Shown here: in pieces, positions 10,520-46,075 of the stretch
How positions within the stretch are numbered: position 1 is the stretch's first letter
Layout of the letters: each line of letters begins with the position of its first letter
Assembly: GCA_028877215.1 (NCBI GenBank)
Contig: JAPPFJ010000027.1
Coordinates: 62,001 to 126,000, forward strand
Length of the DNA: 64,000 nt
Reading direction: 5' to 3'
DNA from: Gemmatimonadota bacterium
GTDB taxonomy: Bacteria > Latescibacterota > UBA2968 > GCA-2709665
Program-made: the position numbers and the translations under genes
The notes under the pieces: model-generated
Told to the model about the DNA's origin: nothing
Database searches by the model: none
Seen by the model: only the letters and a program-made list of their open reading frames with translations

Positions 10520-10682
10520 GTGTTCTGTCCCGGAAATAAGTTGCCTAAATTCGACCGCCGAGTCGCCCTGCTCGCAAGGCGCCGGAGCGCAGGCGACCTG
10601 CGAATGGTCGGCGAGCGAGGGGAACGTAGCGAGACGGGATGAATCGGCGGTCGAATGGTGAGGAATTTTCGGGACAGGACAC
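10520..10682. repeat. 163-bp palindromic intergenic element
   Basis: The ends are inverted repeats, gtgttctgtcccggaaa against ttttcgggacaggacac. A second inverted pair lies inside (10549-10561 attcgaccgccga with 10644-10656), and the centre holds tgctcgcaaggcgccggagc-type GC palindromes. No frame is protein-like. It sits between convergent genes and looks like a MITE or REP-type element. A short tgttctgtcccgg fragment recurs at about 17680. Confidence 0.75.
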
Positions 10683-15222: not shown

Positions 15223-15367
15223 CCGGACTCCGCGCACACAAAGATATCGTGGCGCCCGTTAACCTCAATTCGCCGAAAGATAACAGTCAAATTGGCCACA
15301 AAAAGCACAAAAAACACAGAACGGACCGGCGCCAAACTGGGTATTGAGGTCGTTCACAAGGAAGATA

Positions 15368-15474
15368 TTTCCGTTCACGTCCAGTGACCCGGTGTATCCT
15401 GGTAATCAGCAGTTTAATCGCCTTTATCAGCTTGCATATATTCGATTTAACGTCCCGGAAAAACGACGAATCCT
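15368..15474 (+). repeat. About 107-bp dispersed intergenic repeat, copy 1
   Basis: The stretch containing ttcacgtccagtgacccggt and gtatcctggtaatcagcagt is clearly homologous, over its full length, to the reverse complement of 45881-45986. It lies in the 254-bp gap between hisC and the DUF5683 gene, which otherwise shows nothing but an A-rich region at about 15290-15330. Confidence 0.85.
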
Positions 15475-15476
15475 GG

Positions 15477-15971
15477 TTAGAAGCGGATTCGGAACCGCAT
15501 ACGAAATTCCAGGCCTTCCTCACCGTGTCCGTGCGGCTCCTCCCAGTCGACCTGGTCCAGATGCGCATCCACGTACGCATCGCCCATACTGAACAGGACA
15601 AGGCCAATCGTCGTATACAGAAAGATATTCCGTTCCAGGGATGTATCGACCGACGGGCGATTGTTCAACTGGTTCCGGCGAACGAAAAACGCCACCGTGG
15701 AACCCACCTGCGCGGCGGCGATCAGGCTACCCTTTATGGGCCGGCGGTTATAAAACTGCCCCCATCCCGGCAACGCCAGCGACCGTAACATCGCTCCCCG
15801 CGGGGTCTGGCCCGCCTGGACACTGTCCACGGCCGTCGAATCCGGACTTTCCGCCGCCGCCGGAACGACCCATGTAAGAATAGCCATTCCCGCTGCGAAC
15901 GCGAGCGTCAATGCGGCTGAAATCACACCGCCGGAATTGCCGATTTTTCTGTTCCAGGCATTGCGCTTCAC
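15477..15971 (-). CDS. DUF5683-type membrane protein
   Basis: A 164-aa protein with a signal peptide or anchor (residues 15-40), then SLALPGWGQFYNRRPIKGSL, the hallmark of the DUF5683/TM2-like group common in Bacteroidetes and related phyla, followed by two membrane helices (about 82-95 and 112-130) and an Arg-rich C-terminus. Function is unknown. It starts with GTG four bases before the end of the upstream ROK gene context (gap 3 bp), so it is probably co-transcribed with eda and ROK. Confidence 0.75.
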   Translation of the reverse strand: MKRNAWNRKIGNSGGVISAALTLAFAAGMAILTWVVPAAAESPDSTAVDSVQAGQTPRGAMLRSLALPGWGQFYNRRPIKGSLIAAAQVGSTVAFFVRRNQLNNRPSVDTSLERNIFLYTTIGLVLFSMGDAYVDAHLDQVDWEEPHGHGEEGLEFRMRFRIRF

Positions 15972-23668: not shown

Positions 23669-24664
23669 TCAGGGTACGGAAAAGCTAATGGGCCGCGGCA
23701 CAAAACAAAGCACGAAGATGATGAGTGAAAGATATGCAATCAGTTTCCGAAACGGATCGAGAACCAGATCGGGGTCGCCCGTCGGGGTATGCCGGCGCCC
23801 CAGCGCCAACGCGATGAGTATCCAGATGAGCCATCCCGGCCACCGGGTATCGAGCCAGGTTGAGACACCATCCTGGACGTACAGCCAGTCATACGGCGGC
23901 CCCAGCGCCCACAAGCCTCCAAGAACGAAAAGCGCCGCTTTCGAAACGAGCGCGTGGATGCGCGCCCCTCCGAATGCATAGACAATATGCCCGCCGTCGA
24001 ACTGTCCCACCGGCATGAGATTCAGTGCGGTCACGAAGAGGCCAAGCCAGCCTGCCACGAAGATCGGATGATCGTAGATCGCATATCCTTCGGGGAGGTC
24101 TCCGATAATCTGATTTGTCAGCCACCCGCCCAGAATGGAATTGCCGAGTGAAATCCCGCCTTCGGCAAAGGTTGAGACGGGCACCACTTCGGAAAGATGC
24201 AACCCGACGATCAGGGCAAGCAGGGCAACGACGAAACCGGCGAGCGGCCCGGAGGCTCCGATGTCCATCAGCGCGCGCGGATTCGGAATGCGGGATCTGA
24301 TCTTGATTACAGCACCCAGGGTACCGATGAATGACGGAAAGGGAATGAAATAAGGCAAGGTCGCGCGCACCATCCAGCGGCGGGAGGTGAGGTAGTGCCC
24401 CATCTCGTGGATGCCCAGAATCAATAGCAGGGTTCCGGAAAACGGAAGCCCCAGAACCAGATATTTCGGATTCCACAGCAGCTCCGGCGAGTACAGGTCC
24501 CGTGGAAGGGATTCCGGTGAAACCGCCACGTGCATGGCGACCGCCATCTGCACGCCCGCCGCGGTTGTCGTGTACGCAGTCAGAACGAACAACAAGACAT
24601 TGAGCCAGATGCGGTTACCCGTGTCCCGTCCGGGAAATACGTCACCATTCATCGGCCGATTCAT
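23669..24664 (-). CDS. Site-2 protease family membrane metallopeptidase (M50)
   Basis: A 331-aa integral membrane protein with about seven hydrophobic segments. Zinc ligands are in GIHEMGHYL (HExxH) and NLMPVGQFDGGH (NxxPxxxxDG). These enzymes cut transmembrane segments of regulatory or signal proteins. The arrangement, with a long N-terminal membrane region and no PDZ, resembles plant EGY-like and cyanobacterial S2P homologues. No anti-sigma factor or other candidate substrate is encoded near it. Confidence 0.93.
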   Translation of the reverse strand: MNRPMNGDVFPGRDTGNRIWLNVLLFVLTAYTTTAAGVQMAVAMHVAVSPESLPRDLYSPELLWNPKYLVLGLPFSGTLLLILGIHEMGHYLTSRRWMVRATLPYFIPFPSFIGTLGAVIKIRSRIPNPRALMDIGASGPLAGFVVALLALIVGLHLSEVVPVSTFAEGGISLGNSILGGWLTNQIIGDLPEGYAIYDHPIFVAGWLGLFVTALNLMPVGQFDGGHIVYAFGGARIHALVSKAALFVLGGLWALGPPYDWLYVQDGVSTWLDTRWPGWLIWILIALALGRRHTPTGDPDLVLDPFRKLIAYLSLIIFVLCFVPRPISFSVP

Positions 24665-24702
24665 CCCGCCTCGTCACGGCGCTGACGTGGACTCCATGCC
24701 GG

Positions 24703-29658: not shown

Positions 29659-29685
29659 AGCCAATCGGGATTTGCATGGATGCAC

Positions 29686-29810
29686 AGGATCAAAACCGAT
29701 CAGGATTAACTGGATGAACAGGATTAAGCAGGATTAAAACCAGGAGCAAGATCAAAACCGATCAGGATTGACAGGATCAGAAACAATAGGCAAGATCAGA
29801 ATCTGGAAGA
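29686..29810. repeat. Caggattaa-type degenerate repeats
   Basis: A 20-bp perfect direct repeat gatcaaaaccgatcaggatt occurs at 29688-29707 and 29750-29769, within a run of (a)caggatta(a) units. A similar fragment (aaacaggattaacagg) lies at about 48087. With the MITE-like element after it, this fills the 426-bp gene-free interval. Confidence 0.8.
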
Positions 29811-29868
29811 CTCTAATTAAGTCCACAATTCGCCATTTGGCAAGTACATCGATTCCGATTTATTCATA

Positions 29869-30031
29869 GGAAGTTGTTTTAAAATTACCGGTGAGTTCCC
29901 GAGCGCGAGCGAAAAAGCGGCGGTCAAGGCGGGAAAACCCGCCCATATTTGTCTATACGGGCGGGTTTGACCAACGCCGACCTGCGCTTTTGCAGCCGTG
30001 CGAAGACCGCTGGGAATTTTAAGACAGCTTC
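29869..30031 (+). mobile_element. 163-bp MITE-like element, copy 1
   Basis: The termini ggaagttgttttaaaatt and aattttaagacagcttc are imperfect inverted repeats, and TA lies directly outside or within one base of each end. The same 163-bp sequence, about seven mismatches by my count, is found in opposite orientation at 39777-39939. It has no coding capacity and an internal gggcgggt-type hairpin. It ends 5 bp before a good promoter for the following gene cluster. Confidence 0.88.
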
Positions 30032-30035
30032 TAGG

Positions 30036-30063
30036 TTGACATCCGCCGGTTCGGGTTTATCAT
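30036..30063 (+). promoter_or_regulatory. Sigma-70-type promoter of the polysaccharide cluster
   Basis: TTGACA (30036-30041), 16 bp, TATCAT (30058-30063), 21 bp before the ATG at 30085. The spacing and -35 are near consensus. It directly abuts the right end of the MITE-like element, so insertion may have shaped the present promoter. The leader would be only about 15-25 nt. Confidence 0.65.
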
Positions 30064-30084
30064 GTTGCAGGCCCCTCATTCCTG

Positions 30085-31173
30085 ATGACCGATATGAACT
30101 CGACAGAGCGCGGCTTTGACCTGCGCGGCACCCTCGAGTGCGGATGGAACCTCTTTTTTCGAAAGGGGTACTCGAATCACGCCCGGGACATCTCCGTCAA
30201 CCGGGCCCACTTAGACCACCTCGCCGAGTCCGGCCTGAATCGGCTCGTGGTATTCTGGACCAACGCGCGGGGCTTCAACGACGCCTGGCATGAAGCGGTC
30301 GAATATGCCCATAACGCCGGTCTCAAGCTCATTCGCGCGATGTACGGATTCAGCGGAGGCGGATCCGAGTACACCATGGCCGAACCGGACGCACCGCCGC
30401 ACCTGCTAAAGCCCAGCGCCAGAGGACCGGATACGGCATTGTGCCCCCACGACGCCGAGGCTCGCGCCTGGATGGGCCGCATTGTCGCTGAACGCCTGGC
30501 GCCGGGCGTGGACGGCATCGATATTGAACCCGCGCGGGATATCGGCCGCAACTGTATCTGCGAGAAATGCCGGGCCCTCCGCCCCTTTCAGTGGGACGCG
30601 CTCGTGGTCGATATTCTCACGGAACGCATCAGGGCGCTCAAGCCGGACGCCGAAATCCTTCTGCACCTGAGTATGCCGCCCGACAAACCCGGAAAACTGC
30701 AGATGTCTCGCGACCTCCGGTGTCTGCCGGAATCCATCAGCCACATCTTCGCGTGGGGCGCGGACGACGAAACAAGCCTCGTCGACTGGCTGGACGCGGA
30801 TACAAGATTCGTACACTTCGCCAAACTCGGTCGTGTCCTCCTGTTTCCGGATGGCACGCCGGCAGGAATTCCCGTACACGAGCGTGTCGCCCGCACCTTT
30901 CGCTGGTGCAGACTCGCCGCACAGCGAGGCAAGACCGGCTATTTGTTCGACTACCGCATCTTCGGCGGCAGAGAATGGCAGGGGCACGAGACCGATGTTC
31001 CGCATACACGGTATACCGGCAAACGGCCCGCCTCCATAGCCCTCATGGGTGAGGCCATGAACCGTCCCTGTCTGGATGAGGACGAGCGGCGCGAACTCAT
31101 TGCCCGGCTAAAGGTCGAATGCGACTGGGACCTGGAAGATCCCGTGCGCTTTTACAAATCACCCACCGCATAG
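30085..31173 (+). CDS. Putative TIM-barrel glycoside hydrolase-like protein
   Basis: 362 aa with no signal peptide. The layout is that of a TIM barrel: LAESGLNRLVVFWTNARGF, AHNAGLKLIRAMYGF, then VDGIDIEPARDIGRNCICEKCRAL. That pattern, an acidic strand end followed by CxCxxC, is typical of alpha-glucuronidase/DUF4838-like barrels, and ILLHLSMPP and FAWGADDE follow. The acidic residues in DIEP are candidate catalytic or metal ligands. The substrate is unknown. It is the first gene after the promoter at 30036 and 18 bp before the membrane protein gene, so both belong to one operon. ATG 30094 is an alternative start. Confidence 0.6.
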   Translation: MTDMNSTERGFDLRGTLECGWNLFFRKGYSNHARDISVNRAHLDHLAESGLNRLVVFWTNARGFNDAWHEAVEYAHNAGLKLIRAMYGFSGGGSEYTMAEPDAPPHLLKPSARGPDTALCPHDAEARAWMGRIVAERLAPGVDGIDIEPARDIGRNCICEKCRALRPFQWDALVVDILTERIRALKPDAEILLHLSMPPDKPGKLQMSRDLRCLPESISHIFAWGADDETSLVDWLDADTRFVHFAKLGRVLLFPDGTPAGIPVHERVARTFRWCRLAAQRGKTGYLFDYRIFGGREWQGHETDVPHTRYTGKRPASIALMGEAMNRPCLDEDERRELIARLKVECDWDLEDPVRFYKSPTA

Positions 31174-31191
31174 CGTATTCCTTTTATCTCC

Positions 31192-33159
31192 ATGCCTCCT
31201 ACTTCCAATCCTCTCATTGCCTATCATTCCGCGTCCGCGTCAGAACCCGCCAGACGTGGCGTCACGCTCCGATCCATCCTTCTGGCCGTGCTCGTCTCCG
31301 TCGGGGCGTGCGTCTGGGTCAACTACATCGAGTACGTCATCCACGCTTCCCGCATGACCCTCAGCCACTTCCCGATGGGGTCGCTGATGACCTACCTCAC
31401 CCTTGCCCTGATCCTCAATCCGCTTTGCAGGAAACTCGCCGCGAGATATGCGCTCTCGCCCACCGAACTCAAGGTTACCCTGGCCGGCGGCTTGGTCGGC
31501 GGCGCCATCCCTTCGGTCGGACTGACAGGTTATTTCCTGGGTGCAATTGCCGCGCCGTACTATTTCGCAACGCCGGAAAACCAGTGGGGCGAGTTCTTCC
31601 ACCCCTACATTCCCCAATGGCTGGCGCCGCGCAACGTCAACCATGCCTTGGACCACCTTTTCGAAGGCGGCCCGCCCGGCATGGACATTCCCTGGGAGGT
31701 CTGGTACATTCCCCTGGCCGCGTGGATGGCGTTGATCACGGCCCTCTTTGTGGCCTCCACCAGCCTTTCCGTCATACTTCGACGCCAATGGGTGGAGAGC
31801 GAACGGCTGAGTTACCCGATCCTGCGCCCGGTCCTGGATCTCACCGACCGCGAGAAGCCCGGTTTTACAAGGCGTTTCTGGATCGGCTTCGCCATTGCGC
31901 TGGGGATCATCAGCTGGAACATGATCCACTACTTCGTACCCGGATTTCCGCAGATTCCCAATATTCGCTGGGGTCCCTGGGTGCATTTCGAACGATACTT
32001 CCCCGGTATCTGGACCCGCATCAACATGTTCACCATCTCCTTCGCCTACTTCGCAAACATCGACGTCCTCTTCAGCCTGTGGTTCTTCTGCGTTCTCTTC
32101 ATCCTGCGCAGCGGCATCCTCAATCGATACGGCTTTAACGCCAGCAGTACCTATACGACAACGGGCGAGTTTGCATGGCTTCAACTCGGCGGATTCGTCA
32201 CGCTGGTTGGCTGGGGATTGTGGATCGCGCGACACCACCTGAGATCCGTGATGAGGATCGCCATTGGCCGAAGCGCGCCTCTGGACGATGCCGACGAAAT
32301 GATGAAATACCGAACCGCTGTTCTGGGTTTCATCCTGAGTACGCTCTTCGTCATATTCTGGTTCTGGCGGGCCGGTATGGGGATTGGCGTTGCATGTCTG
32401 TCCGTTCTGGCGACTCTGATCATTTTTCTGGGCGTTTCCCGTATCGTGGCCGAAGTCGGCCTGGTCTTCGTCTGCACGCCGATTGGCCAGCAGGAAATCG
32501 TTACCCGGCTGATCGGGCCGAGGAATCTCTCCGGGCCGAGCCTCACTGTCCTGGCCTTTTCGAACGCGCTTACCTCGTTCGGAAAGGGCCTGTTCATGCC
32601 CTCCGTCGTTCACGCCACAAAAATCGCCGACCTCTGCCCTCGCGAGGACCGTCCCCGTGTGCTGACCGCGATATTCCTGGCGTTTGCCGCGGGCGTGGTT
32701 GCGTCCATCGCCTATACCCTCTACCTGGGATACACCCACGGCGCGTACAATTTCAACGACTTCCCGTTCACGCGATACAGCCGGAGCGGCTTTGCGAATG
32801 CGCTCTCGAAAATGAAGGACCCGGCGGTCGAGACAAGCATCCGACCCATATTGCTGGGCATCGGGGCAGCCGCGATGTCCATCCTCACGTTCCTCAAATA
32901 CCGCTTCCCCTGGTGGCCGCTTCATCCGGTAGGCTTCGCGATCGCCGGCATCTCGTACGTACACTTTTCCACTTTTTCGGTGTTTATCGCATGGTGCATC
33001 AAATTCATCATCCTGCGTATCGGCGGGGCGGCGCTGTACAGGCGCTATATCCCGTTTTTTCTGGGGATATTGACGGGTTATACGACCGGCGTGGGGCTTT
33101 CCCTTGTCGTGGATATCGTCTGGTTCCCCGGGGCGGGCCATTCGATTCATGGGTATTGA
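31192..33159 (+). CDS. Polytopic membrane protein, DUF6785/DUF6784-like
   Basis: 655 aa with a dozen or more hydrophobic segments across the whole length. Loop sequences WVESERLSYPILRPVLDL, NRYGFNASSTYTTTGEFAWLQLGG and FNDFPFTRYSRSGFA recall the DUF6785/DUF6784 proteins described in Poribacteria, Planctomycetes and Verrucomicrobia-type genomes, which resemble OPT-type transporters. It could import the oligosaccharides that the neighbouring hydrolases process, but that rests only on context. A 648-codon open frame on the other strand is a shadow. Confidence 0.72.
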   Translation: MPPTSNPLIAYHSASASEPARRGVTLRSILLAVLVSVGACVWVNYIEYVIHASRMTLSHFPMGSLMTYLTLALILNPLCRKLAARYALSPTELKVTLAGGLVGGAIPSVGLTGYFLGAIAAPYYFATPENQWGEFFHPYIPQWLAPRNVNHALDHLFEGGPPGMDIPWEVWYIPLAAWMALITALFVASTSLSVILRRQWVESERLSYPILRPVLDLTDREKPGFTRRFWIGFAIALGIISWNMIHYFVPGFPQIPNIRWGPWVHFERYFPGIWTRINMFTISFAYFANIDVLFSLWFFCVLFILRSGILNRYGFNASSTYTTTGEFAWLQLGGFVTLVGWGLWIARHHLRSVMRIAIGRSAPLDDADEMMKYRTAVLGFILSTLFVIFWFWRAGMGIGVACLSVLATLIIFLGVSRIVAEVGLVFVCTPIGQQEIVTRLIGPRNLSGPSLTVLAFSNALTSFGKGLFMPSVVHATKIADLCPREDRPRVLTAIFLAFAAGVVASIAYTLYLGYTHGAYNFNDFPFTRYSRSGFANALSKMKDPAVETSIRPILLGIGAAAMSILTFLKYRFPWWPLHPVGFAIAGISYVHFSTFSVFIAWCIKFIILRIGGAALYRRYIPFFLGILTGYTTGVGLSLVVDIVWFPGAGHSIHGY

Positions 33160-33174
33160 ACGTATGCGGGGGTT

Positions 33175-33201
33175 GGGCGCCCACAAGGGACGCCCCTACA
33201 A
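33175..33201 (-). repeat. Dispersed 27-bp intergenic repeat, copy B
   Basis: gggcgcccacaagggacgcc continuing cctacaa: the reverse complement of copy A at 14057. It lies 15 bp after the membrane protein stop. Confidence 0.85.
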
Positions 33202-33350
33202 GGTGAGGAGGAGTCGATCAGGGCGGAAGGTCCAGCGACCGTGCCACGAATCGCCAGTTTGCGATACCAGATCGAGCACCCTCAGTCGGCCACGCCGCAA
33301 GTTGGCAATTCGCGGTACATGTGACGACCCGGTATTCGGGAGATGCTGTT

Positions 33351-34589
33351 GTGGTTGACATCCGTCATACGTTCAACTGGCACGACGTCCACGGGAACCA
33401 GGACTATATTTTCGGCGAGGATGGATACCTTAAGATGGACGGGTCGAGGACGCCCGTTCAGTGTTTCCGTGAACTCAAAGAGAAGATCACCGACCGCGCC
33501 GGCTCGCTTGAACTGGCCATGCGGGTTGTACTCGACGAGCCGGAGTACCACACGCTCTACACCCTTCGGCTTTATGACAGCACGGACCGCCCTGCCATCG
33601 TATGTCATATCCGGAGGGACGGCTGCCTGCTGTTCCAGGGCGATAACGGGTTTCTTGACTCGGGCAGGGTACTCACGTTTCAGGGCAACGCTCCTTTCAA
33701 CGATCGGACCAGGCGTAAATGGTACGTCGTCGAATCCGACGAACACGTCTACACGTTCGAAGGCTTCGACTTCTCAAGCCAGACTGCCGTCTTTCTTCTG
33801 GACGGCGAACGACCTGTCACCGTACCCTTCCGCAACTGGGTACGGGACATCGCAAGATTGGAAATCGGGACGGGCGGCGTCGGTATCGGCCGGCGTATCC
33901 GCGTCAGGCACGTAAGGCAATCGGTCGGCGGCAACCAGATCGACCGGGAAGATCACCCGCTTTACTGGAAACCGATCCCGCCGCCACGGGACGGAGAACC
34001 GGACGACAATGTCTGCGAGAGCAGGCTCAGACCCGTTCAGAATCGATGGCTTGAACTCATCACACGGTACGGGTTCGTGACCACGACCTTTCCCGTTATT
34101 CCCAGGGGCACGCTGGAATTCGAAGTCAAGTCGCCGGACGTATCCGCTGAAGCCTGCATCCTGCTTGGCGAGTACGACGGATCCATCAAGTGTTTCCGAA
34201 AAATCCAGACGGGAATCCTGACAGACCGCATGACCGTTGCAACCGGCCATCCAACGCCCGGTTTCAACACGTTTGATAATTCAATCGTTCCCGAAAACGA
34301 CCGGGCATACCGGTTCAAAATCGCATGGGATGCGGAAACAAATAAGCAGAAGATCTGGATAGACGACGTGCCGCAGCGATACCAGGGCGAGACGGAAATC
34401 GAAATCGACGGCCTCTGGGGAAAAGAAAACCGCATGATCCGCGGCATCGACACGATCTCTCTACACCCCGGCCTGCTGGGGGCCGCGCGGCTCACTTCCA
34501 TCCAGAAAGCGGAAGGCAGAAAGCTGGAGAATCCGCCGGAGCCCCTCCGGACGTGGTGGGGAAACTTCAGGCTTCGCGCCCTGGACTGA
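33351..34589 (+). CDS. Hypothetical protein with two beta-sandwich-like halves
   Basis: 412 aa, mostly alternating beta strands. The N-terminal half (about 1-200) contains VRRKWYVVESDEHVYTFEGF-like strands (RKWYVVESDEH), and the C-terminal half (about 215-412) has FEVKSPDVSAEACILLGEYD and FKIAWDAETNKQKIWIDDV, a pattern typical of concanavalin/LamG-like jelly rolls. No signal peptide or catalytic motif is evident. A carbohydrate-binding or lyase role is suggested only by fold impression and by the heparinase gene 47 bp downstream. Start uncertain: GTG 33351 has GGGAG eight bases upstream; GTG 33321 is in frame. Confidence 0.55.
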   Translation: MVDIRHTFNWHDVHGNQDYIFGEDGYLKMDGSRTPVQCFRELKEKITDRAGSLELAMRVVLDEPEYHTLYTLRLYDSTDRPAIVCHIRRDGCLLFQGDNGFLDSGRVLTFQGNAPFNDRTRRKWYVVESDEHVYTFEGFDFSSQTAVFLLDGERPVTVPFRNWVRDIARLEIGTGGVGIGRRIRVRHVRQSVGGNQIDREDHPLYWKPIPPPRDGEPDDNVCESRLRPVQNRWLELITRYGFVTTTFPVIPRGTLEFEVKSPDVSAEACILLGEYDGSIKCFRKIQTGILTDRMTVATGHPTPGFNTFDNSIVPENDRAYRFKIAWDAETNKQKIWIDDVPQRYQGETEIEIDGLWGKENRMIRGIDTISLHPGLLGAARLTSIQKAEGRKLENPPEPLRTWWGNFRLRALD

Positions 34590-34636
34590 CGGCCGGCCTG
34601 CGGCACGCGGATGTTTGACGTCGACAAGAGGCCGAT

Positions 34637-36985
34637 ATGCAAACCCATCGAAATCCATGCACTATGTACAAACCCGACGACCTTGCGCGCGCCAGGGAAA
34701 ATATCAACCGACACGCGTGGGCCAGGGATCTCTACGGTCAGATCAAATCACAGGCCGGCTACTATATGACGATGGACCGTGGCCGGATGCGGTCTTTCAT
34801 CAGCGACCAGACGCCGCTCGTCACCGTCGTCTGTCCCGACTGCGGCTGCGGACCCTGGTATGCCTACATCCTGATCAACCAGGGCGACACGCTTCAATGC
34901 ACGGACTGCAAGGCGATGTGGGACTGGGACCCGGAGGACACTTCCGAAACATGGAACATCCAGGCGGTGGTCCGCACGTATCGCCTGAAGTACATCCTTG
35001 GCGGCCTGGAGAGCGCCGGAATTGTCTACGGTATCGAAGGCGACGTGCGATACGCCGAAAAAGCCGCCATTCTGGTCGAACGATTCGCTGAAGTCTTCAA
35101 GAGCTACCGGCTGAACCAGGTCAACAAGAACGTCTGGCACGATCAGAACGATCCGTATTACGGAAAAATCGACGGCTGGAAACAGAGGGATGCGTGGTGC
35201 GCCCGAACCGTGCTGATCGCGTATGACCTCATCCGCGACTCAGACGTATTTGAAGACGAACAGCGCCGGTCCATAGATGCCTTTGTCGAATACGTACGGG
35301 ACTATTTCGTCGAGTCCTTCAACAACCCGGGAACCTCGACGCTCGAGGGATATCAATATACCGATGACCTCTCACCGTATCTCTCCCACTATTCCATTCA
35401 GGACCACGGAGGCGCGTGGTGGTGCATCGCCGCTTCCGCCGCGCTGACGGGCGACCGGGAAATCCTGCGATCCGTTGTCAGGTTGTACGAAGACATGCTC
35501 AAACCCGAGGCCGGCGTGTTCTTCCAGGATGGCGCGTTTTACGAATGCACGGCCGACTACACCCTGGGGCTGCTCCAGACGACCATCGGCATCCCGGAAA
35601 TCATCCGTGGCAATCTGGACACCGACATGTACGCCAATCCCAGCTGCGCCCTACTGGAGAAGTGTTATACCTGGTTTCTGGACGCCGCCTTTCCGAACGA
35701 CACCAACCCGGCGATCAACGATTCGCACGTTGGCAGTCCGTTGCGCCCGTTTTGTTCGGAAATCGCCTATATCGTCTACAACAGTCAGAAGGCGCTGCGA
35801 CATCTCAAGACACTATGGGGCGGCGACCTGAACGGAGGAACAGAATATTCGCTCTTCTACCGGGATCCGGATGCCGCGGTCGAAGGCGACGGCGAACCCT
35901 ACGCCGCTGCGAGCGCCCACCTGCCCGATATCGGACTCATGATTCTTCGTCACGGCGAAGACAAGCCGTCTCGGACCATGGCCTTCATCGACTACGGACC
36001 CTATATTCCGGCCGCCCACAAGCAAAAAGACTATCTCAACTTCGTCCTCTGGTCGTGCGGACAGGAAATGGTGACGGAAATGGGATACAATTGGAATCCG
36101 GAGTGGGCTCGCCTGTGGGAACGCGGCCCGCTATCGCACAATACCGTCCTGGAATGCGCGGGACAGGGCGAGGGAGGAAAACCGCTTCTGTGGTGCGTGA
36201 CCCCGGGCCCGAAACTGGCCGAGGCGGGCCTGCCGCCGGGCAACGCCCGCCTTATCGCACTGCTGCCGCGAAGTTCGGGCGAACCCCTCATCGCCGACGT
36301 CTTCAGCGTCTCGGGAGACTACGATTCGTACACCTGGATGCTGCACGCAAAATCCGGAGACCTGGAGGTTGCGGGCCTCGACGCCCTCGTGCCTTCAGGC
36401 GTCCCCGAGCCCCTGCGTTCCGGCCGGTCGGCCAGCGCGATTGACGACGTCACCGCCACGTGGACGATGGATCGCGGCGGCTTGCGGACAATTATCCCGA
36501 ATATCTGCGACACGACGGTTACGGTCTCCGAATGTCCACCTGAGGAGGACGTGATCGAGGACCTGCACGCCGAGGGCGGCACGCTTAAACCCGGCGCCGT
36601 TCTCCCGTACCGCGGCCACCTCCAGGTCTCACGGCCCGGTCCGGATGCCGTGTTCGCCGCCGTACACGCGCCGTTCACGCACCACCCTCCCGCGATCGAA
36701 ATCGAATGCCGTACGCCGTCCGACGCCGCGTTGGCGCTCCGGATCCACACGGAAAATGAACGCTTTCTCATGTTGTATAACCCCTCGCGGGTGGAGGCGC
36801 ATTTCGACGGACTGTCCCTGAAGGGACGCGCGGCCGTCGTGACGGTCCAGGACGATGCCCTCCGTTCGCTCTGCCTCGCTTCGGGCACTTCGCTGGATTT
36901 CGGCGAGACCGGGCTTCACTTGAAAGAGACCGGCAACGCCTACGGAGTACGTTCCGGAGACGCGTTTAAAAGGGTGGAGCTGTAG
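34637..36985 (+). CDS. Heparinase II/III family protein (polysaccharide lyase-like)
   Basis: 782 aa, cytosolic by sequence. An alpha/alpha-toroid N-terminal part (about 90-400) includes a Cys4 patch (VVCPDCGCGP...LQCTDCKAMW) that may bind zinc, WKQRDAWCART and catalytic-site-like SHYSIQDHGGAWW. The C-terminal beta-sandwich (about 420-780) contains the family hallmark WERGPLSHNTVLECAGQ. Heparinase II/III-like lyases cleave uronic-acid polysaccharides by beta-elimination to unsaturated sugars. AGAGG precedes the ATG by about 5-7 bases. This is the strongest evidence that the cluster handles a uronate glycan. Confidence 0.85.
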   Translation: MQTHRNPCTMYKPDDLARARENINRHAWARDLYGQIKSQAGYYMTMDRGRMRSFISDQTPLVTVVCPDCGCGPWYAYILINQGDTLQCTDCKAMWDWDPEDTSETWNIQAVVRTYRLKYILGGLESAGIVYGIEGDVRYAEKAAILVERFAEVFKSYRLNQVNKNVWHDQNDPYYGKIDGWKQRDAWCARTVLIAYDLIRDSDVFEDEQRRSIDAFVEYVRDYFVESFNNPGTSTLEGYQYTDDLSPYLSHYSIQDHGGAWWCIAASAALTGDREILRSVVRLYEDMLKPEAGVFFQDGAFYECTADYTLGLLQTTIGIPEIIRGNLDTDMYANPSCALLEKCYTWFLDAAFPNDTNPAINDSHVGSPLRPFCSEIAYIVYNSQKALRHLKTLWGGDLNGGTEYSLFYRDPDAAVEGDGEPYAAASAHLPDIGLMILRHGEDKPSRTMAFIDYGPYIPAAHKQKDYLNFVLWSCGQEMVTEMGYNWNPEWARLWERGPLSHNTVLECAGQGEGGKPLLWCVTPGPKLAEAGLPPGNARLIALLPRSSGEPLIADVFSVSGDYDSYTWMLHAKSGDLEVAGLDALVPSGVPEPLRSGRSASAIDDVTATWTMDRGGLRTIIPNICDTTVTVSECPPEEDVIEDLHAEGGTLKPGAVLPYRGHLQVSRPGPDAVFAAVHAPFTHHPPAIEIECRTPSDAALALRIHTENERFLMLYNPSRVEAHFDGLSLKGRAAVVTVQDDALRSLCLASGTSLDFGETGLHLKETGNAYGVRSGDAFKRVEL

Positions 36986-37047
36986 GGTTCAGTCCGCTAT
37001 ATTGTGCCGTTCCGAAACGCAATCCTACTTAAATTCAGGAGACGTGC

Positions 37048-37992
37048 ATGCCGTCCGACTTTCTCAACCGGATCGCCGAAGGACCCCTGCTTTGCGATGG
37101 CGGCTATTATCTCGAATTCGAACGGCGCTGCCTTGGCAGCTACGCCTCCAAAATTCCGATGGGCGTACTCGACTTTCCCGAAGGCGTTCTCGAACTGCAC
37201 AAGGAATTCGCCCGCGCGGGCGCCGAAGTTCTGCAGGCCATGGTCTGGGGCGTACGGCCGATGGAACGCGAGGAGGAACTCCACAGCAAGGCCGTGGAAC
37301 TCGCACGGGAAGCAGCCGGACAGGACAGGTTCGTGGCGGGCACGCTCAGCCCGTTCGTCTATTCGGGCCGATCCAAATGGGAGCCCATGACCGAAGAAGA
37401 CAGGACCAATGCAAGTGAATTCTTCGAACGCCGCGTTACGCAGCAGACCTCTGCCGGCGTGGATCTCTTCATCGTCGAAACCTTCTATTCCGTGGATGAA
37501 ATCAGTCTGGCCATTCCCTTCGTCAAACAGGCCGGGATTCCCGCCGTCGTGACGATGACCTATCGCGACGCGGAGTTTACCAGGGAGGGTTACCGTCCGG
37601 GCGAAGCCGCCAAACGCCTCGTGGACGTGGGCGCCGACGTGGTGGGCATCAATTGCATGCGACCATGGTCCACCATGCGCCCCCTGATGTACGAAGTCAG
37701 GGAAGCCGTTTCGGTGCCTCTATGCGCGCAGCCCACCGGATACGAACTCGAACCCGGAGAGAATTTCAATCGCCCGTTGAGCGTCGCCAACCTCTGGACG
37801 CAGGTCGAGCCCCGCGTTGTCACGCGTTTTTCGATGGCGGAGTATACCACCGAAGCCGCACATATGGGCATCGGCCTCATCGGATCCTGCTGCGGCGCCC
37901 TGCCGTTCCACGTGCGCGCCATGGCCGAGGCGCTTGGCAAGGCCACCGACCTGCCCGACGTTAACCGTGGGTACCACGGGCTTGCGGGGTGA
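37048..37992 (+). CDS. Homocysteine S-methyltransferase-like protein
   Basis: A 314-aa TIM-barrel protein of the pfam S-methyl_trans family (BHMT/MmuM/MetH N-domain). Zinc Cys ligands are in VGINCMRPW and IGSCCGALP; the N-terminus LLCDGGYYLEFERR takes the place of the usual DGGxGTxL. The family moves a methyl group from betaine, S-methylmethionine or a corrinoid partner to homocysteine. Its place within a polysaccharide cluster is puzzling; methylated sugars or osmolytes such as DMSP are possible. AGGAG seven bases before the ATG. Confidence 0.85.
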   Translation: MPSDFLNRIAEGPLLCDGGYYLEFERRCLGSYASKIPMGVLDFPEGVLELHKEFARAGAEVLQAMVWGVRPMEREEELHSKAVELAREAAGQDRFVAGTLSPFVYSGRSKWEPMTEEDRTNASEFFERRVTQQTSAGVDLFIVETFYSVDEISLAIPFVKQAGIPAVVTMTYRDAEFTREGYRPGEAAKRLVDVGADVVGINCMRPWSTMRPLMYEVREAVSVPLCAQPTGYELEPGENFNRPLSVANLWTQVEPRVVTRFSMAEYTTEAAHMGIGLIGSCCGALPFHVRAMAEALGKATDLPDVNRGYHGLAG

Positions 37993-38078
37993 GACGCGAT
38001 CGTGGAATTCCGGGGACACGTTCCGTAGCCATTCACGCCGCTCACTGACCGCGCCGCGCAGAGGGGAGGAAGTCATCA

Positions 38079-39761
38079 ATGCTGAATGAAGTCACCGCGT
38101 GCCTCGAGAAGGGGTTCGAACTCGGCGTCCGGTGGACGGATGAAGACGGCGTCCTGAACGATGCCTATGAGAGCAACCGGCCGGAGAACTTCGCGCCGGC
38201 CTGCTGGGCCGTTATCGGCGCGTCGCTCTACCGGCTCTCCGGCGAGGACGTCTACCTCGAGTGGACGGACCGGTGGATGAAACGCACGGCCGAGATCATG
38301 GAAGGCGCCAGAAATTCGCCCGGTTTCAGGGAATACGTGATGGGGTACGGCGCGATGGTTTTTCCTATACTCTGCGATGTCGTGGACAGGGATATCCTGG
38401 AACGATGGGAAACCGCCTTTAGCGCTTCGTATACCGACGACGCGGAATTGTCCGATTGCCATGTCTCAGCCGCGTCTCTGCTGTGCGACCTGTTCCTGGA
38501 TGGCGGGCGGGAGGATAAAGCCGGTAAGCGATCCGGAGAATTCATCGCCGCGTTCAACAGGAGGTTGACATCGGGGGGTTTTCTCCGGGACGACGACGTG
38601 AACGGGCACTCCGTTGCGCACGTCTACCTAACCGGCACGTTCCTGGCCGCCGCCCTGCTCAATGGAGAATCAGATGGTTACAGGGTTTCCGAACACGACC
38701 GGCGTCAGGTCCGGCGGCTCCTCGAGACCATATGCGCGTGGTTCAAAAGGGCCAACGGACAATTCCATCTCCCGTTTCTGGCCAGTCGGAGCATCTACCA
38801 GATGTACGTCTACCCCATGGTCGCGCTTCTCTCGTTTATAGGCGAGGGTGAAAAGGCCAGGGAAAGAATCCTCGCCCTTCTCGACTTCTGCCGGTCCTTC
38901 AATCCTGACAAGGGCGTATTCTCCCATACGCCGAACCATCTGTCGCCATTTGCCGTCGCCGGCCTGGAATGGACCTACAACCGTCTGAACACCGACCTGG
39001 GTGCGGGTCTCGTTGCCTGGGCGCTGCTCGCGCTCCTGATCGACGAGGAATGGACGGGGTTCGGCCCGGTCGCCGCCGCCCCGGTGGAAGACGTGGTCGA
39101 TACGGAAGCGGGATACGCGATTCTGCACGGCGAGAAGTCTCGCCTTGCTCTGACCCTCTGCAACCACGACTGGGGGTACCACCTCCCGCTCCAGCCGCTT
39201 TCGGTCAAACTCGGCAATACCCCGATGATCGAACCCATCGCCGATGCCAAACGGGACGGTGTCAAACATACCTTCCACGAACAGATTACGGAGCCGGACA
39301 AGGCCGATCCGCTGCTTGAGCCCTACTTCGGCATTCTTGTCAACGAAGCCGGCGGCGCCTACCGCATCATGGAAGGCGACGCGGAGGTGATTGCCGCGGA
39401 CGAATTCAGACTTGACGGTCCGGTCCGGCTGAACCTCAAACTCGACCTCGAGGACGAACTCATCCGGCTCACGTACCGGGTCACAGACCTCAGGGACGAC
39501 GACCAGGTCGTTTTCTCCATACCAATCGTCCTCTGGGACGGCAAGGAGGAGCTGATCTACGATATCCACGGCGGTACGATCGTCCTGGGCTGGAAAGGCG
39601 CAGCCTACCGCATATCGATATCCGGCACCAGCGGCCCCTGGGATCTGCACATGGCGCGCTATCTACACGCTGGGTACGGCGTCACGGGGAACATGACCGC
39701 GCCCGTCGCTCACGAATCCTCACGACTCCAGGTCGCCGTCACCATCGAACGGACGGCGTGA
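38079..39761 (+). CDS. Putative alpha/alpha-toroid carbohydrate-active protein
   Basis: 560 aa. The N-terminal about 330 residues are helical with repeated aromatic turns (WAVIGASLYRLSGEDVYLEW, TPNHLSPFAVAGLEWTYNRL), as in (alpha/alpha) toroid lyases and glycoside hydrolases. The C-terminal about 220 residues are beta-rich (SRLALTLCNHDWGYHLPL, FSIPIVLWDGKEELIYDIHG), giving the toroid plus sandwich layout of polysaccharide lyases. No specific catalytic motif recognised. No signal peptide. GGGGAGGAAG precedes the ATG. It is the last gene before the second MITE-like copy. Confidence 0.6.
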   Translation: MLNEVTACLEKGFELGVRWTDEDGVLNDAYESNRPENFAPACWAVIGASLYRLSGEDVYLEWTDRWMKRTAEIMEGARNSPGFREYVMGYGAMVFPILCDVVDRDILERWETAFSASYTDDAELSDCHVSAASLLCDLFLDGGREDKAGKRSGEFIAAFNRRLTSGGFLRDDDVNGHSVAHVYLTGTFLAAALLNGESDGYRVSEHDRRQVRRLLETICAWFKRANGQFHLPFLASRSIYQMYVYPMVALLSFIGEGEKARERILALLDFCRSFNPDKGVFSHTPNHLSPFAVAGLEWTYNRLNTDLGAGLVAWALLALLIDEEWTGFGPVAAAPVEDVVDTEAGYAILHGEKSRLALTLCNHDWGYHLPLQPLSVKLGNTPMIEPIADAKRDGVKHTFHEQITEPDKADPLLEPYFGILVNEAGGAYRIMEGDAEVIAADEFRLDGPVRLNLKLDLEDELIRLTYRVTDLRDDDQVVFSIPIVLWDGKEELIYDIHGGTIVLGWKGAAYRISISGTSGPWDLHMARYLHAGYGVTGNMTAPVAHESSRLQVAVTIERTA

Positions 39762-39776
39762 CGCGCTTCCGTCTTA

Positions 39777-39939
39777 AGAAGCTGTCTTAAAATTCCCAGC
39801 GGTCTTCGCGCGGCTGCAAAAGCGCCGGTCGGCGTTGGTCAAATCCACCCGTATAGACAAATATGGGCGAATTTTCCCGCCTTGACCGCCACTTTTTCGC
39901 TCGCGCTCGGGAACTCACCGGTAATTTTAAAACAACTTC
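39777..39939 (-). mobile_element. 163-bp MITE-like element, copy 2
   Basis: Reverse complement of copy 1 (29869-30031), near-identical. Left end agaagctgtcttaaaatt, right end aattttaaaacaacttc, with TA at 39775-39776 and 39940-39941. It ends 12 bp before the ATG of the next gene, so that gene's leader and possible ribosome site lie in element DNA. Confidence 0.88.
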
Positions 39940-39951
39940 TATGGTCCGCTC

Positions 39952-45817: not shown

Positions 45818-45880
45818 ACATTTCTCCGTGTGAGCCGATTTCGTTGCCGGCAGCGCCGCCGGGATTCCAGCTCTAACCTT

Positions 45881-45986
45881 GATTCGTAAGTCTTCGGGGA
45901 CGTCAATTCAAATATGTGCTTGTAAATAAAGGCGATTAAACGGCGGATTACCAGGATACACCAGGTCACTGGACGTGAAGGGAAAA
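45881..45986 (-). repeat. About 107-bp dispersed intergenic repeat, copy 2
   Basis: The reverse complement matches 15368-15474 along its length (shared blocks include cgtccagtgacc, ggtgtatcctggtaatc and gtttaatcgcctttat). It occupies the gap between the glycosyltransferase and CocE-type genes; nothing else is evident in the 258-bp interval. Confidence 0.85.
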
Positions 45987-46075
45987 AACGTCATTCTATA
46001 CGTCGATATTGCCCCGTTTCGGAGGGTTTTATCGCGTCGCCACGTTGCTGTTTTTTTCGGATTGAGGCTAATTCC

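Follow-up and report, generated by a model that had tools for sequence, protein, structure and literature searches.

Two near-identical copies of a short sequence lie in opposite orientation on either side of a six-gene cluster in the window, the 64,000-nucleotide stretch of Gemmatimonadota DNA analysed here (G000:C29:62001-126000, with G000 as the window's own genome), and they raise the question of whether this pair can invert the cluster or carry it as a unit. Very probably, the two copies are independent insertions without a functional tie to the gene cluster; they would belong to an abundant, intergenic and non-autonomous miniature inverted-repeat transposable element (MITE), moved by an IS1031-like transposase, with an exchangeable interior and an old, conserved hairpin core that is set between other IS5-type ends elsewhere in the class.

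The inverted pair has arms of 163 nt (29870-30032 and 39777-39939) that are 96% complementary and 9744 nt apart. The element proper, GAAG...CTTC, is 162 bp long, a correction of the 163 bp of a preliminary description of this DNA; its two near-identical, opposite copies with about seven mismatches are real, and they differ at 7 aligned positions. The single strand of the element folds into one long hairpin (z -6.35, 0 shuffles as stable), and BLAST with the element sequence found 41 places in its own genome, down to E 1e-80; on both counts, the pair is far beyond chance. Instead of the "TA" borders described earlier, each copy is bordered by a 3-bp duplication of the TNA type, which reads TAG/TAG for the left copy and TAA/TAT for the right one. 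With G001, G002 and G003 as the relatives compared across the cluster, the features are the following:

29867..29869, no strand: left target-site duplication of the left copy, TAG; the empty site of G003 reads TAA here.
29870..30031, plus strand: left copy, 162-bp hairpin element in canonical orientation, with ends GAAGTTGTTTTAAAATT and GAAGCTGTCTTAAAATT; covariance model 185.2 bits, E 1.8e-43.
29887..30014, plus strand: internal hairpin core of 128 nt, the element minus its 17-nt ends; the class-conserved part, from core identity to other families.
30032..30034, no strand: right target-site duplication of the left copy, TAG.
39775..39777, no strand: left target-site duplication of the right copy, TAA; G002 and G003 have no insertion here.
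39778..39939, minus strand: right copy of the element, canonical strand minus; 189.6 bits, E 1.6e-44; absent at the orthologous site of G002 and G003.
39940..39942, no strand: right target-site duplication of the right copy, TAT, with one mismatch.
30085..39761, plus strand: six-gene cluster between the copies, context only and outside the element; collinear in G003 without the elements.

The copies do lie just outside the first and the sixth genes: the first open reading frame (ORF; 30085) begins 53 bp downstream of the left copy, and the sixth ends, at 39761, 16 bp ahead of the right copy. However, the right copy is also 12 bp upstream of the next gene (39952, a Gfo/Idh/MocA oxidoreductase), so its position "just after the cluster" hinges on where the edge of the cluster is drawn.

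As for the link to the cluster, G003 (C37) has the whole cluster and its flanks in collinear order with the left and right sites both empty, and in G002 (C80) they are also collinear, the left copy being cut down to 84 bp and the right site unoccupied; in G001 (C66), the left copy is 212 bp long, and the first and last cluster genes are lost. The left site reads TTCATAAGTTGAC when empty, in G003, and TTCATAG, element, TAGGTTGAC when filled; the right site reads CTTCTGAAGGTCC when empty, in G002, and CGTCTTAA, element, TATGGTCC when filled. Of the four species, three have the left insertion; the right one was encountered in the window's genome alone. Separately, G001 (L215 7438-14620) lacks most of the first cluster gene, and unrelated DNA of about 1.2 kb stands in place of the last two genes of the region.

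The preliminary description had proposed that recombination between the copies would invert the cluster, and that a transposase acting on the outer ends could move it as a unit. That the copies form a composite mobile unit or an invertible segment is hardly tenable: although their inverted orientation and 96% identity would permit recombination in principle, no inversion was seen, gene order and orientation being the same across the three relatives, and inversion between the copies, possible in principle, is without support here. Likewise, there is no sign of a 10-kb unit moving as a composite transposon, since each copy has a target duplication of its own and none lies around the unit; the cluster keeps its place whether the elements are present or not. 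The spacing is unremarkable, with 6 of 19 neighbour pairs lying within 9.75 kb, and given the copy density (Poisson expectation 0.24 per copy), a second copy at the length of the cluster is the chance expectation. By the earlier account itself, a tie to the cluster was to be given up if the element occurred at scores of unrelated positions, or if synteny was kept in relatives without it; many scattered intergenic copies were found, and synteny persists with both sites empty in G003 and with the right site empty in G002.

Regarding its abundance, the 832,660 bp put together from four G000 contigs contain 23 intact copies of the element, which corresponds to about 28 per Mb; a scan with the 17-nt end pattern, at up to 3 mismatches, gave 214 matches genome-wide (105 + 109) versus 8 (5 + 3) for the reversed pattern used as a control, and the number of copies per genome is estimated at roughly 100 to 160. 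The elements are non-coding, have paired 17-nt ends and measure 84-213 bp, mostly 162 bp. They are intergenic, as judged with a simple gene caller of our own, except for three gene-call overlaps that are taken to be wrong start calls. Among 96 distinct copies that have both their flanks, taken together from the window's genome and the named relatives, the 3-bp duplication is perfect in 49, and 45 of these are TNA; the flank consensus is YTNA, the base before the duplication being mostly C or T. The pattern scan of the named genomes gave 83 stretches, in the metagenome-assembled genomes (MAGs) RHO2_bin_5 and RHO3_bin_7, titled Gemmatimonadota, and Plut_88899 and 277c_44, titled Candidatus Latescibacterota. 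An unfilled site is observed elsewhere as well, at C5:319523 of the own genome, for another RHO2 copy. Where a genome has some 28 copies of such an element per Mb, inverted repeats that flank a gene cluster say little in favour of a mobile unit.

The element was not found in the plasmids, phages or viral contigs searched. A longer element was considered at unpaired ends and contig ends, where only truncated copies and assembly breaks are present; similarly, the G004 contigs that start exactly 76 bp before the element were considered as a larger repeat or a polymorphic insertion and rejected, because they all share one 76-bp flank, which looks like an assembly artefact. The same artefactual flank accompanies the element both in a Latescibacterota bin and in a contig binned as Gammaproteobacteria (L089, Plut_88898), which is probably mis-binned.

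The earlier proposal of a transposase-mobilised, non-autonomous element is borne out by the inverted ends, the 3-bp duplications, the precise empty sites and the presence of insertion sequences (ISs) with matching ends in related genomes. In G009, from the same order, an IS of 928 bp with ends GAAGTTGTTTTAAAAAT and GAAGCTGTTTTAAAAAT and a TTA duplication has up to 16 of 17 end bases in common with the element; in G037, from the same class, an IS of 930 bp with ends GAAGCYGTCTGAAAAC matches at 14 of 17, and its four copies have the duplications TGA, TAA, TTA and TTA. The G037 transposase has 268 aa and matches the IS5 family model NF033580 with E 7.6e-70, with PF01609 and PF13340 above cut-off. 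In both size and target, the partner ISs agree with the IS1031 group, with an IS5-type DDE transposase of about 270 aa, a 3-bp TNA duplication and a length of about 850-950 bp; elements of this group favour TNA targets and give 3-bp repeats, and the ends of one of them, ISLrh, begin with GAACCTGTCT (PMC12016507). An IS5-family, IS1031-like DDE transposase is thus the likely mover of the element, and would act on the GAAGCTGTYTTAAAATT ends and duplicate the TNA target. In G009 (L251, L256), the 36 C-terminal residues of the transposase have several short matches adjoining a matching end, which are possibly deletion remnants of the 928-bp IS. Separately, a large IS expansion was noted in a complete genome of the same order (G007:C1), with at least 150 matches to DDE_Tnp_1, of which many are degraded.

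The hairpin itself carries compensatory changes, observed directly. In the genus set, made of 54 aligned copies that are all 162 bp long, 10 of 65 pairs changed on both sides, versus 2.0 in shuffles, and 98.3% of cells pair. A covariance model finds the element in 18 of the 41 genomes of the class; in the class-wide set, whose alignment is fitted to this model and includes both strands of some elements, 48 of 60 pairs changed on both sides, versus 31.6 in shuffles, and 88.7% of cells pair, versus about 40% when slid. The canonical strand folds more stably in 94 of 94 genus copies and in nearly all diverged copies, and part of this energy difference is inherited through the conserved motif; for L266, the strand was taken from the covariance model, opposite to that given by the motif rule, and the sign of the fold energy then agrees. 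Where a standard pair has a rare variant in the genus, the outcome is G-U in 25 cases and A-C in 7; in the diverged families, the two counts come close to each other (53 and 43), and selection for a particular strand is therefore not demonstrated. No Rfam family reached its gathering score, the best match below the threshold being a microRNA model with E 0.012 and 23 bits versus the 53 required.

As for the interior, the element would be one 160-nt hairpin of modular build, with cassettes present or absent at fixed points. Beside the 162-bp form there are forms of 186-189 bp and 209-213 bp. Their additional length comes from small hairpins at two constant positions; these have GAGGGGCGCGCA or GAGCAAGCGCA as the loop, on stems that differ. 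The central cassette is found in both orientations, and the loop motif has 30 exact occurrences in the own genome, many within elements. Cassettes differ at 4 of the 8 sites filled in two species: the left copy of the window (162/212/84 bp), L086/L119 (213/162), L090/L122 (162/188) and L093/L156 (186/162). In the last of these, RHO2 L093 (186 bp) and RHO3 L156:981 (162 bp) occupy the same site and have the uncommon arm variants AAAATTTCCGG and GGGAAAG in common, with a different central cassette; on account of these variants, the arms look orthologous, with only the interior changed. The simplest explanation of these sequences is that interiors are exchanged between dispersed copies while the outer arms are kept, and the cassettes would move most simply by gene conversion. 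In RHO3 L156 (981-1826), two copies about 500 bp apart carry the same uncommon arm variant and different cassettes, and RHO2 has an element at just one of these two sites, where its cassette is the other one.

The core extends beyond this family of ends. In 8 of the 9 elements of other families of the class that were tested, 82-90 of 128 core positions are identical to the window copy, with z 5.5-8.0 versus shuffles; in L270, the model recognises an element, and its core identity is no better than in shuffles (z 1.0). These related cores carry unlike ends, namely GAGTCCGTACGG in G021, GGGCCTGTCTGAAAAG in G026, GAGGCCCTAACAAAAC in G037, AAGCCTATACGG in G030 and GAAGCTGTTTCATAAC in G039. IS5-type elements with similar ends were found in G031 (GAGTCCCTAACAAAAT, duplication TTA) and in G037 (GAGCCTATACGAAAATT, 942 bp, duplications TTA, TAA and TAA), hence related cores lie between ends resembling at least three IS end types, and two end types occur within single genomes in G030, G036, G037 and G039. 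The core is better conserved than the ends, which sets it apart from ordinary MITEs. It does not behave as an IS remnant, being homologous to cores with other ends, and no matching core was seen in the IS sequences read, by inspection only and without a dedicated alignment. Gradual co-divergence of the ends with their transposases is a possible alternative to an exchange of ends, though set against the two end types within single genomes. Tentatively, these elements may differ from ordinary MITEs and form a class-wide family of mobile structured cores, with one conserved hairpin of some 128 nt, perhaps at work as a folded RNA or as single-stranded DNA, which has taken on different IS5-type ends time and again and exchanges its internal cassettes between copies.

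Some points weigh against the explanation as a whole. The mover is deduced from relatives: no IS5-type transposase with matching ends was found in G000-G005, that is the window's genome and its five nearest relatives, with the profiles PF01609, PF13586, PF13359 and PF13340 or with the G037 transposase as the query, and the PF01609 matches in G002 and G003 belong to ISs with other ends; it should be noted that the assemblies are MAGs, from which multi-copy ISs can be missing. An autonomous IS with the same ends, as envisaged in the preliminary description, was therefore not met in the window's genus, and the near-matching ones are those of G009 and G037. Moreover, only about half of the copies (49 of 96) keep a perfect duplication, and the class-wide pair counts depend on the model-fitted, partly two-stranded alignment. 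As for the paired arms, they might owe their complementarity to arm-to-arm gene conversion or hairpin-templated copying, with no selection on the palindrome, an idea that is possible and somewhat doubtful. Such copying would yield compensatory changes without any function, and the diverged elements, with 53 wobbles versus 43 A-C mismatches, have no general strand preference; yet the non-complementary segments CCCGAGCGCGAGCGAA and TTGCAGCCGCGCGAAG, which face each other, are conserved across families and should be erased by arm conversion, and the 25 G-U versus 7 A-C of the genus set point to a preferred strand.

The cassette differences, in turn, could reflect independent insertions into one preferred target, which is unlikely overall. 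A TNA preference does exist, some pairs have only common polymorphisms alike in their outer arms (for instance, the window left copy and RHO3 L144), and the left-site duplication is TAG in G000 and G002 versus TAA/TAT in G001; re-insertion is possible at the differing sites other than L093/L156; at the latter, the uncommon arm variants are alike at one site, and the central cassette is not. The variant AAAATTTCCGG is also present in the nearby copy L156:1641, whence local exchange could contribute. A service to the host, with the element acting as a transcription terminator or a cis-acting RNA signal and its positions kept by selection, is improbable. The hairpin is very stable and has compensatory changes, and the insertion overlaps the stop codon in 22 of 70 gene-end flanks versus 15.9 expected (P 0.024); nonetheless, orientation relative to the genes is random in tandem gaps (34 sense, 30 antisense), convergent-gene gaps hold 3 of 90 copies despite making up 13% of the intergenic sequence, where terminators should be enriched, and the insertion sites differ between close relatives. 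The random orientation and the few copies in convergent gaps make a terminator role unlikely. Most likely, this MITE is a selfish element tolerated between genes; its folded core may aid the element's own spread or persistence, and would be kept for this reason.

Among known systems, REPIN/RAYT elements are likewise high-copy intergenic palindromes. REPINs are mobilised by Y1 (RAYT) transposases, whereas the present element has a 3-bp duplication and the ends of a DDE IS; the duplication argues against membership. There is also a likeness to the IS5-family MITEs of the IS1031 group, which are shorter than 250 bp, carry no gene, and have IS-matching inverted ends and a TNA duplication (PMC12016507), and bacterial MITEs in general are intergenic and of high copy number (PMC10969869); unlike the IS1031-group MITEs, the interior here is not a remnant of any IS examined, and the core occurs with several kinds of ends and is better conserved than they are. 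The BOX elements of Streptococcus pneumoniae are modular interspersed repeats with optional modules, a strong RNA fold, terminal inverted repeats, target-site duplication and, from strain to strain, size variation at the same locus (PMC3049150). They are, however, built from tandem boxB arrays, whereas the present element has single hairpin cassettes at fixed points, one of them in either orientation; in our analysis the likeness would be one of behaviour, with no claim of descent. Finally, ERIC of the Enterobacteriaceae is a palindromic intergenic repeat of about 127 bp, present from 30 to several hundred times in a genome (PMC10969869), but it has another sequence and another host, and the TNA target and the IS5-type partner are particular to the present element.

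Regarding the surroundings, the cluster genes are, in order, an ORF without a Pfam match, DUF6785/6784, an ORF without a Pfam match, a heparinase II/III-like protein, a homocysteine S-methyltransferase and an ORF without a Pfam match. The DUF6785/6784 protein (31192-33159) has more than 20 paralogues per genome in the window's genus, and related genomes have about 35. A minisatellite of the CAGGATTAA type, present also in G002, occupies 29685-29807, immediately ahead of the left copy. The window contains other repeats: a second abundant interspersed one of about 200 bp (15334-15490 and 45863-46019; about 21 copies in 832 kb) has inverted ends TTTAACCT...AGGTTAAA, and its possible partner is a PF01609 IS of G002 (L057) with ends TTAACCTTATTTCC and TTAACCTTGATTCATC; a third, of about 60 bp (10625-10682 and 24621-24678), has about 11 matches in 832 kb; and a tandem pair of 52-bp units, 96% identical, occupies 894-997.

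In conclusion, the notable result is the core found between unlike ends, rather than the bracketing of the cluster. MITEs are usually viewed as passive IS remnants whose ends alone are of consequence; in the present element, it is the interior that is conserved. If this is true, a structured interior would help a non-autonomous element to persist, and such an element could switch from one transposase to another; with cassettes exchanged at fixed sites, a comparison of strains can put the question to the test.

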